From Primulina eburnea (Eukaryota; Streptophyta; Magnoliopsida; Lamiales; Gesneriaceae), in assembly GCF_022965805.1 (NCBI RefSeq), contig NC_133104.1:28764069-28828068 (forward strand): 64,000 nucleotides of DNA, written 5' to 3'. A program made the position numbers and the translations under genes. This document shows positions 50,253 to 52,060 of this stretch, one piece after another (positions within the stretch are counted from its first letter, which is position 1; the number at the start of each line of letters is the position of its first letter). Under the pieces are notes generated by a model. It saw only the letters and a program-made list of their open reading frames with translations, made no database searches and was not told the DNA's origin.

Positions 50253-50510
50253 ATGGCTGGATCCTCTGCACAAACATTGAAAAATATTTGTGTATTTGTG
50301 GGTCGAGTCCTGGAAAAAATGAAGTGTTTGTAGAAGCATCGAATAATCTTGGAAAGATATTGGCTGAGAGAAAAATTCACTTGGTATATGGGGGATGTAA
50401 TATTGGGTTAATGGGATCTGTTTCAACATCTGCTCATCTTGGAGGTAGTCAGGTTTTGGTTACTATTTGTTACGCCTTAAACGCATACAAATCTCGAGGA
50501 TGAGATTAAT
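50253..50510 (+). pseudogene. LOG-like: LOG-like (cytokinin-activating enzyme) N-terminal half, captured by element E
   Basis: LOG enzymes release active cytokinin bases from riboside 5'-monophosphates in the cytosol. ATG at 50253 (MAGSSAQTLKNICVF), then a one-base frameshift near 50300, then CGSSPGKNEVFVEASNNLG, LAERKIHLVYGGCNIGLMGS and HLGGSQVLV in the next frame. The CGSS segment and VYGG..GLMG are the Rossmann-like nucleotide-binding signatures of the LOG family. The sequence degrades before 50522, where a solo LTR is inserted; the C-terminal half follows at 51628. There are no introns at the places where plant LOG genes usually have them, which suggests capture as RNA. It lies inside the retrotransposon between integrase and 3' LTR. 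Confidence 0.88.
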
Positions 50511-50521
50511 GTTTTTAATGC

Positions 50522-51627
50522 TGTAACATATCCCAAAGTTTTTGTTTTGATGATACCAAAACTTGGATTAAAAATGTACTAATGTTTTATATTGAGGCAT
50601 GCAGAAAATTAAGAACAGGTTACGTTCGGAAGATCCGACATTTGGTTCGGACGGTCCGAAATTGTGCAATTCAGAAGCAAAATAGAAGCTGTTCGGAAGC
50701 TGCGAGGAGAGCGTTCGGACGTTCCGAAGACGTGATCGGACGTTCCGAACACAAGCAATCAAATCACTTCAATGCGGAGACAAATTGATATGACTGATTG
50801 ATCGAGTAAGATTTCGGACGCTACGAAGACATTTCGGACGCTACGAAGTGTTGAAGATTTCAAATCTCCGGAAACGCGGGAATGTTCGGACGGTACGAAC
50901 TGGAGTTCGGACCTTCCGAAGCTGTGCATAGACGGTCTGAAAGAACTGTTCGGAAGCAACGAAGTTTGATCGGTTCCTCCGAAGCATATGTTCGGACCCT
51001 ACGAAGTCAAGAACGGACGATCCGAAGTCATCCCAAAATTACGGAAATTGATTTCAATCACATCGGACGTTCCGAAGTATAAACAGAAGATCCGAACCTT
51101 GGCGTCCAAGACTAGTATAAATAGGCCTTTGAGGATGCATTTTCAAATATCCCACTCCACTCTCTTGTCTCTTACAAAGCTTTCTACTATCTCTTGTGTG
51201 CGTTGATTAAAAGAGTTGTAATATCAAAAGAGTTGTAGAAAAAGAGTGAAAGTAATACTCTCGAGTGGGTTGTAAAGTTCGTGGCTATCCTTGGAGCCCT
51301 CAAGGCCAAGTAGACGCATCGAGGCGTGGTTGTAAAAGCTAGCTTGGAGCTCCTAAAGCCAAGTCGATATAGTGATACCTCGATCCTCATCGAGAAGGGG
51401 AGACGTAGACGATTCTTCGTCGAACTTCCATAAACATCTCTATCCCTCTTTACTTTACGCATTTACTTTACTACGCATTTATTTTACGCACTTACTTTAC
51501 GCATTCATTTTATTTGTGATTGTCCCTCAAGTCTTCCGCTTGCAATTTTTGCAAACTCGTTTTAAAAACGCTAAAGGGCCTAAAAGAACCTATTCACCCC
51601 CCCTTTAGGTTCTTCACTATTCCTACA
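50522..51627 (+). mobile_element. Copia-type solo LTR inserted in the LOG-like sequence (about 1.1 kb)
   Basis: Begins TGTAACATATCCCAAAG and ends CCCCCTTTAGGT...TTCCTACA, as many plant copia LTRs do. TATA box TATAAATA at 51116-51123, polyadenylation-type region later. U3 holds about 16 copies of a TTCGGACNNTCCGAA palindrome. No internal region follows: LOG coding resumes at once. A clear target duplication was not found (AATGC against GCTTT), so the borders may be off by some bases. Confidence 0.65.
50626..51100. repeat. Array of about 16 TTCGGACNNTCCGAA palindromes
   Basis: Dispersed, 15-20 bases each, for example GTTCGGACGTTCCGAAG (about 50720), ATCGGACGTTCCGAAC (about 50737), TTTCGGACGCTACGAAG (about 50814 and 50832) and GTTCGGACCTTCCGAAG. 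Spacers are unrelated and of variable length (2-60 bases). Arms are TTCGGA and TCCGAA, with a frequent ACGAA variant on the right. Confidence 0.92.
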
Positions 51628-52060
51628 GCTTTAGCTGCTTTAGCTGAAGGAAATATTACAGGTGTTACGATTGGGGAGGAATTAAAATTATTTTCTGTGT
51701 ATGAAAAAATCACTCAAATGATTTAAAATTCTGATGCTTTTATCGCACTACCAGGTAGTTTTGGCACATTAGAAGAAATTTTTCACACTGTTTCTTGGGC
51801 ACAACTTAATATCCATAATAAACATGTGGGCTTGTTGAATATCAATAATTATTATGACAGTTTGTTGACATTTCTTGATAAAGCTGTGGAACAGAATTCC
51901 ATTTCAGAAAATTCATGACGGCTGCTCATCTGTGCTTCGACTACCGACCAATTAATTGATGATTTGGAAGCTTTTGTTCATAAGCCTGATCCGATGATAA
52001 CAAAGATCAATTGGTCGCAATCAAGCAGTAAGAAAAAGGAAGTTGGATCATTGATTCAAA
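51628..52060 (+). pseudogene. LOG-like: LOG-like C-terminal half, captured by element E
   Basis: One frame from 51628: ALAEGNITGVTIGEELKLF, a TAA (51724-51726), NSDAFIALPGSFGTLEEIF, SWAQLNIHNKHVGLLNINN, YYDSLLTFLDKAVEQNS, a TGA (51916-51918), ASTTDQLIDDLEAFV. PGSFGTLEE (51751-51777) is the family's PGGxGTxxE catalytic motif with Ser for the second Gly. Two stops, a changed motif, the solo LTR and the frameshift in the N-terminal half make this copy non-functional. The reading frame structure nevertheless remains clear over about 130 residues, so decay is recent. LOG family membership is certain by eye; the exact parent gene is not known. Confidence 0.9.

Follow-up and report, generated by a model that had tools for sequence, protein, structure and literature searches.

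We analyzed a window of 64,000 nucleotides from Primulina eburnea (NC_133104.1, positions 28,764,069 to 28,828,068 of the forward strand; all coordinates below count from the first base of the window). The window contains a Ty3/gypsy long terminal repeat (LTR) retrotransposon at 42396-54868. The element has two LTRs, a target-site duplication with one mismatch, and gag, reverse transcriptase (RT), RNase H, and integrase domains, which a Pfam scan places in the Ty3/gypsy order. Between its integrase and its 3' LTR lie two further genes on the same strand, one for a cysteine-rich protein (CRP)-like product and one for a product like the plant protein LONELY GUY (LOG). We consider it probable that this is a dead insertion of Athila type and that it comes from a lineage in which both genes occupy the env position, the CRP-like gene coming first after the integrase and the LOG-like gene second. 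By Athila type we mean an assumed likeness in sequence. An earlier note on this DNA had put a LOG-like gene in the env position. The LOG-like gene does follow the integrase, but the CRP-like gene, which the note did not mention, lies between the two.

The element is flanked by CTCTT on the 5' side (42391-42395) and CCCTT on the 3' side (54869-54873). The 5' LTR (42396-43943, plus strand, 1548 bp) is 97.4% identical to the 3' LTR (53304-54868, plus strand, 1565 bp), with a Kimura two-parameter (K2P) distance of 0.026. At rates of 1.3e-8 and 7e-9, which we assume to be suitable, this distance gives an insertion age of about 1.0 to 1.9 million years. The primer-binding site, TGGCGCCGTTGCCGGGGA, lies at 43950-43967 on the plus strand and is presumably of the tRNA-Asp type. 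It is followed, all on the plus strand, by gag (Retrotrans_gag, PF03732; 44414-44860), part of the reverse transcriptase (PF00078; 46773-47234), the RT RNase H and integrase zinc-binding domains (PF17917, PF17919, and PF17921; 47270-48391), and the integrase core (PF00665; 48352-49317). The Pfam scan of the window element reported no second, archaeal-type RNase H. The CRP-like gene is at 49502-50039, also on the plus strand.

To locate the LOG-like gene, we compared 2,698 stop-to-stop pieces of at least 15 amino acids, from both strands of the window, with a LOG profile built from 13 database proteins; the window sequence was not among these proteins. Four pieces matched, at 50270-50482 (E = 1.8e-28), 51634-51723 (E = 9e-7), 51727-51912 (E = 1.7e-33), and 51919-52044 (E = 6e-14). 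Every other piece scored E = 0.12 or worse, and there is thus no second LOG copy in the window. The first block matched PF18306 (E = 1.8e-6, with the query joined across a frame break), and the second matched PF03641 (E = 3.9e-24). The nearest solved structure by sequence was the Arabidopsis LOG At2g37210 (2a33; E = 3.8e-32). These results confirm a LOG-like coding sequence on the plus strand between integrase and 3' LTR, where the note had read it. The note had also described two LOG blocks. Both are LOG, but the gap between them is a nested solo LTR of 1149 bp (50468-51616) that starts with TGTTACGCCT, ends with AGGTTCTTCA (TG...CA), and is flanked by an exact 5-bp duplication, CTATT. Thus, the two blocks are the two halves of one gene, located at 50253-50467 and 51617-52044 on the plus strand. 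The window has no second copy of the nested LTR, which belongs to another element and contains many short repeats of the TTCGGA/TCCGAA type.

The window LOG gene is broken in other ways besides this insert. Its frame opens with an ATG at 50253 but shifts early in block 1, and block 2 has two in-frame stops. In addition, the catalytic Arg has become Lys, and a Gly of the conserved motif is missing (PGS for PGG). To judge from its reading frames, the window copy is dead, with neither extra protein expected to be made intact. No intron is visible in the window LOG copy, in agreement with the earlier reading. A pyrimidine-rich run ending in CAG shortly upstream of 50253 is a putative splice acceptor. 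Intact LOG frames, which the note had thought possible in other family members, do exist: the best LOG relative, P0001, has an open frame of 212 amino acids and is 87% identical to block 2. Its predicted fold (predicted local distance difference test score [pLDDT] of 82) best matched Arabidopsis LOG 2a33 (E = 2.8e-22) and also matched 1ydh. P0001 passed TIGR00730 and scored below the cut-off of the NCBIfam LOG equivalog (125.6 versus 300 bits). By both fold and sequence, the element LOG is a member of the plant LOG family.

The block 2 query returned 642 LOG relatives at E ≤ 1e-3. Counts of LOG relatives here and below are for the best 120 listed, only a part of which are shown to lie in an element. 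Reevesia pubescens accounts for 40 of the 120 clusters and Diplodiscus for 14; the locus names place them on 16 and 11 differently numbered chromosomes, respectively. So many clusters spread over chromosomes look transposon-like. A search for long proteins gave 54 matches, of which 11 join RT, RNase H, or integrase Pfam domains to LOG; five are from Primulina (the species represented being P. tabacum, P. eburnea, and P. huaijiensis) and six are from Citrus sinensis. These 11 bear out the suggestion that LOG is common to members of an element family. Among the other matches were host LOGs fused to unrelated neighbors, more Citrus models, and proteins of bacteria and fungi. The P. eburnea model P0093 starts with the end of the same integrase (75.5% identity to that of the window over 49 amino acids) and continues with LOG. 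CRP and LOG occur together in 19 of the 294 proteins collected (16 from Citrus and 3 from Primulina), and CRP precedes LOG in 18 of them; the remaining model, P0122, has LOG pieces on both sides.

The integrases follow the same grouping of models. The window integrase is 93-94% identical to those of P0135 (P. eburnea) and P0165 (P. tabacum), 82% identical to that of P0140, and 68-70% identical to the integrases of the Citrus LOG elements P0171, P0129, P0130, and P0143. Six further Citrus models, some of them short, gave 62-69%, and a short stretch of P0133 gave 49%. Identity to the other Athila-type integrase, in Citrus P0147, was only 56%. The Citrus P0129 integrase is 61% identical to that of P0147 versus 75% to that of Primulina P0140. 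LOG frames are open at 209-217 amino acids in several plant families. Together, these comparisons support placing the LOG gene in a multi-species element family. Three points weigh against this placement. LOG is joined to element proteins only in Primulina, in Citrus, and in Acer P0134, where the gag-like part was recognized by eye. The membership of the Reevesia, Diplodiscus, Populus, and Melia LOGs is based on copy number or similarity. Finally, neighboring genes can be fused in gene models, as in P0147, one of the six C. sinensis models, which has LOG before pol and probably spans two adjacent elements. Longest contigs of equal size, picked out by eye among the LOG and the CRP relatives (8723, 4511, 1524, 1018, and 734 bases), seemed at first to show that the two genes share contigs. 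Both frames cannot fit in 1018 or 734 bases, so at least two of the five matches are coincidental, and we used none of them.

For the LOG tree, short rows were dropped and the resulting 109 rows, seven fused models included, were thinned to 44: 31 element-type LOGs (among them the second LOG part of the window), 11 host LOGs, and 2 bacterial LOGs. The 31 element-type rows formed one clade (support 97/86) beside the 11 host LOGs (94/95). Acer P0134, whose first part appears Athila gag-like by eye, was the first branch of the element clade, and the Citrus LOGs sat on a long branch (0.85). Against this arrangement, the approximately unbiased (AU) test did not reject trees in which the element LOGs are nested inside groups of host LOGs (p = 0.31 and 0.30). 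Thus, no single donor LOG is singled out.

Four proteins named as LOGL10, LOG6, or LOG3-like in Populus and Primulina (P0084, P0089, P0093, and P0004) resemble element-type LOGs, P0004 by its place in the tree and the other three by search only; of these, P0093 is the model that starts with integrase sequence. Some plant "LOG" or "LOGL10" annotations may therefore be transposon genes.

The active site bears on what the LOG-like protein might do. Residue roles have been assigned in CgLOG, in which Lys100 and Glu125 are given as residues of the prenyl pocket. Alanine changes of the AMP-binding residues, a list that includes Lys100, nearly abolished CgLOG activity with one exception, in passages that do not identify the individual mutants (PMC4979012). 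We found the catalytic Arg in 112 and the catalytic Glu in all 120 of the listed relatives, and the phosphate-binding motif was kept. The pocket Lys (Lys100 of CgLOG) was kept in only 2 of the 120, being Met in 56, Ile in 33, Leu in 28, and unaligned in one. The pocket Glu (Glu125 of CgLOG) was likewise kept in 2, with Gln in 74, His in 39, and other residues in 5. Among 10 host LOG models, Lys was present in 9, Glu in 10, and the catalytic Arg in 8; the two models without Arg are badly built or gapped at that column. Thus, the Lys and Glu of a cytokinin-binding pocket are missing from nearly all of the listed relatives. They are present in Acer P0134, which also keeps the catalytic Arg and Glu. 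All six Citrus models examined (P0122, P0128, P0129, P0130, P0131, and P0133) lack the catalytic Glu and two Gly residues of the motif.

Given the replaced pocket residues and the alanine data that include Lys100, it is more likely that the protein has changed its substrate or lost its activity than that it simply activates cytokinin. The competing explanation is that the LOG protein works as a cytokinin-activating enzyme, increasing cytokinin in the host and so favoring dividing cells, where the element can spread. It fits the conserved Arg, Glu, and phosphate-binding motif, the predicted fold of P0001, which is that of Arabidopsis LOG, and the host-like pocket of the basal Acer P0134. However, of the 120 listed relatives, 117 have Met, Ile, or Leu in place of Lys and 118 have lost the Glu, while the host models keep them in 9 and 10 of 10, and the catalytic Glu is gone in all six Citrus models. 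We therefore think this explanation rather unlikely. The label "cytokinin-activating" is doubtful for the same reasons, as is the direct effect on host hormone levels that the note had raised. Near the C terminus, of the 88 listed relatives of at least 200 amino acids, 79 have a basic cluster and 76 have an LxLxL motif, which resemble a nuclear signal and an EAR motif, respectively. P0001 and the P. eburnea protein P0004 are without LxLxL.

The CRP-like gene in the window is broken into four pieces in two frames, which we recovered by a piecewise profile search. A wider search returned 1,163 relatives at E ≤ 1, and counts are for the best 120 listed; among the matches listed, the named ones are from Citrus, Populus, Acer, Xanthoceras, Orobanche, and Rhamnella. 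The intact relatives are open frames of about 182 amino acids (175-190 in 81 of the 120). They have a basic stretch followed by four cysteines, in the pattern C-x2-C-x4-C-x(2-4)-C in 97 of the 120. A Pfam scan of 60 of these members at E ≤ 0.01 found Viral_NABP (PF05515) in 54 and Carla_C4 (PF01623) in 51, the best at 1e-8; the search had been seeded with models bearing Carla_C4. P0190 scored above both curated cut-offs (PF05515, 33.8 versus 23 bits; PF01623, 28.5 versus 20.9 bits). An intact CRP frame on a separate contig, L002, described below, exceeded the first (34.2 versus 23 bits; E = 3.3e-8) and fell just below the second (19.8 versus 20.9 bits). Of the window CRP pieces on their own, one of three matched, at E = 0.0075 and below the cut-off. 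At the level of sequence, these matches show the CRP-like gene to be a homologue of the cysteine-rich nucleic-acid-binding proteins of flexiviruses.

We also compared the predicted CRP structure with models of viral proteins. Nine of the top ten matches were named, and eight of them were silencing suppressors or nucleic-acid- or RNA-binding proteins, from Grapevine Kizil Sapak virus, fig latent virus 1, Grapevine viruses H and G, sweet potato chlorotic fleck virus, Chrysanthemum virus B, red clover vein mosaic virus, and Helleborus mosaic virus. The ninth was a 15kDa protein of cherry mottle leaf virus. We take all of these to be flexiviruses, and we assume that the CRP group takes in carla-, viti-, tricho-, and allexiviruses. 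Against the homology stand the poor CRP model (pLDDT 67; predicted template modeling score [pTM] 0.34) and the E values of the structure matches, which ranged from 0.048 to 2.7 with none under 0.001 in a method that also uses sequence. According to one report, viral CRPs usually suppress RNA silencing, and a zinc finger and a nuclear signal rich in arginine are found in those of beny-, allexi-, mandari-, viti-, and carlaviruses (PMC11213338). The flexivirus proteins of the Viral_NABP and Carla_C4 families share with the element CRP the basic stretch and the four cysteines after it; the element CRP differs in being encoded by a retrotransposon, in its length of about 182 amino acids, and in having N- and C-terminal parts of its own. 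Searches by sequence against the PDB found nothing for CRP up to E = 1, NCBIfam gave no match with two CRP proteins, and the CRP alignment had no match in a plasmid collection. In IMG/VR, neither P0001 nor the CRP alignment found relatives, and the LOG alignment gave one match at 23% identity.

It is possible that the CRP-like protein is a generic zinc-finger protein whose basic stretch and four cysteines came to resemble those of the flexivirus proteins by convergence. Carla_C4 matches no more than about 30 residues, in the basic and cysteine part, and stays below the cut-off in L002 (19.8 of 20.9 bits), and the structure match is weak (best E, 0.048). However, the match to Viral_NABP extends over about 85 residues, takes in the part before the finger, and is above the cut-off (33.8 and 34.2 versus 23 bits). 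Furthermore, the nine named viral structure matches look like one family. We judge convergence unlikely and prefer homology with the flexivirus proteins.

When the CRP alignment was run in a single scan against contigs of bacterial genomes, it matched one locus, L002 (DAIEQH010000041.1; 3,330 bp). It is a plant-type contig in a Candidatus Nomurabacteria metagenome-assembled genome and has open integrase and intact CRP frames. Because these are plant retrotransposon genes, L002 probably contaminates the public bacterial genome. L002 aligns with 47739-50153 of the window at 72%, to about 110 bp past the CRP stop codon, and LOG was not found in its remaining 870 bases. An integrase and a CRP without LOG suggest that LOG was probably added after CRP, which is the simpler reading. 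Other considerations speak against this order: L002 could have lost LOG or could hold it beyond the end of the contig, and a colinear match at window 52135-52192 was weak (E = 0.024), scoring no higher than matches to low-complexity sequence in that search.

We used L002 to estimate the ratio of nonsynonymous to synonymous substitution rates (dN/dS) as well. The integrase gave a dN/dS of 0.14 over 321 codons (dS, 1.44). The CRP pieces gave 0.17, 0.23, 0.09, and 0.71, or 0.28 when pooled (175 codons); the values for both genes are Nei-Gojobori (NG86) values only, and one partner in the CRP comparison is the dead window copy. The last CRP piece, with its ratio of 0.71 and very low dS (0.26), counts against our reading. 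This low dS coincides with a conserved stretch of DNA at 49954-50098 (plus strand), where identity to L002 was 0.83-0.90 per 60-column step up to 50093; the integrase had a mean of 0.72 and a best step of 0.87. The CRP stop codon of L002 is at 2347, and the conserved stretch runs across it into noncoding sequence. Perhaps 49954-50098 is a cis-acting RNA element.

Both extra genes could also be passengers that have been copied without selection since their capture. This fits the dead window copy and the Citrus LOGs, which lack catalytic residues and sit on a long branch (0.85). It is improbable in view of the open frames of about 182 (CRP) and 209-217 (LOG) amino acids in several plant families, the invariant active-site residues, and the pooled CRP dN/dS of 0.28, obtained although one partner is a dead copy. 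Finally, we rejected as very improbable the idea that a processed LOG pseudogene was captured by, or inserted in, this single element copy as an isolated event, in spite of the broken window gene and the lack of a second LOG copy in the window, because gene models of three Primulina species and Citrus have pol and then LOG, several with CRP between, and an intact relative, P0001, is 87% identical.

The anatomy of the element, the association of the genes in Primulina and Citrus gene models, and the homologies of both genes are observed, and together they make the following history probable. The CRP-like gene would already have been present in an Athila lineage when this lineage took up, in its 3' part, a copy of a processed transcript from a host LOG, which it would then have kept as a gene of the element. 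Expression of both extra genes would be through splicing of LTR transcripts. The CRP-like protein is probably nuclear, acts on nucleic acid, and, by analogy with its viral relatives, may weaken RNA silencing directed at the element. In most lineages, the LOG-like protein is probably still able to cleave the N-glycosidic bond of a nucleotide 5'-monophosphate; its base pocket seems to have been reshaped, its substrate need not be a cytokinin, and in Citrus it appears to be without catalysis. The present copy would have inserted about 1 to 2 million years ago and later been split by the solo LTR. More tentatively, there may be a widespread eudicot Athila lineage in which a homologue of a flexivirus silencing suppressor is a regular gene. 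This gene would have passed between retrotransposons and RNA viruses, perhaps in the direction from element to virus, and together with a LOG-derived nucleotide hydrolase whose pocket was remade after capture it would form a two-gene module for counter-defense or host manipulation. We regard this as possible but less likely than its alternatives taken together.

The note knew of no Athila family carrying LOG. However, a LOG (YgdH) domain has been reported in Gypsy LTR retrotransposons of Citrus sinensis, C. clementina, and Populus trichocarpa, with a citation of Steinbauerova et al. 2011 (PMC9289625), so LOG capture is not new. Those elements also have a LOG-type domain in Ty3/gypsy, and our Citrus models are presumably the same elements. 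The section that treats them names neither their lineage nor a second extra gene; relative to it, our analysis adds an asterid family (Gesneriaceae), the order integrase-CRP-LOG, the pocket changes, and the loss of the catalytic Glu in Citrus. The same source describes orchid Ogre-like elements with an N6-methyladenosine (m6A) demethylase domain, which are also plant Gypsy elements with a captured enzyme domain but are of the Tat/Ogre lineage and carry an enzyme other than LOG (PMC9289625). A narrow search of the literature found no report of a flexivirus-CRP-like gene in Athila elements.

Plant LOGs such as At2g37210 (2a33) have the same fold, catalytic Arg and Glu, and PGGxGTxxE motif as the element LOGs, which differ in forming a separate clade, in the replaced pocket Lys and Glu, and in having the C-terminal basic cluster and LxLxL. 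Athila elements with env-like open reading frames (ORFs) are of the same gag/pol type, by a likeness that we assume, and have extra genes in the same place. In the genes described here, by contrast, the Pfam scans reported no Athila ORF-1 or env-like domain, and an enzyme and a CRP-like protein occupy this position instead. For most of the extra genes in plant LTR retrotransposons the function is not known, and here one of them has readable active-site chemistry. An enzyme and a gene from a viral silencing-suppressor family are neighbors in elements of both a rosid (Citrus) and an asterid (Primulina), which makes two questions testable: whether plant retroelements have silencing suppressors of their own, and what the origin of the flexivirus CRP genes is.

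Two other features of the window lie outside this element. Direct repeats at 648-947 and 8347-8646, 7.7 kb apart and 100% alike, with long open frames at 3071-7459, probably mark a young LTR element (1-8646). At 38280-38781, there are three partly overlapping direct repeats of about 190 nucleotides each that are 83-86% alike.

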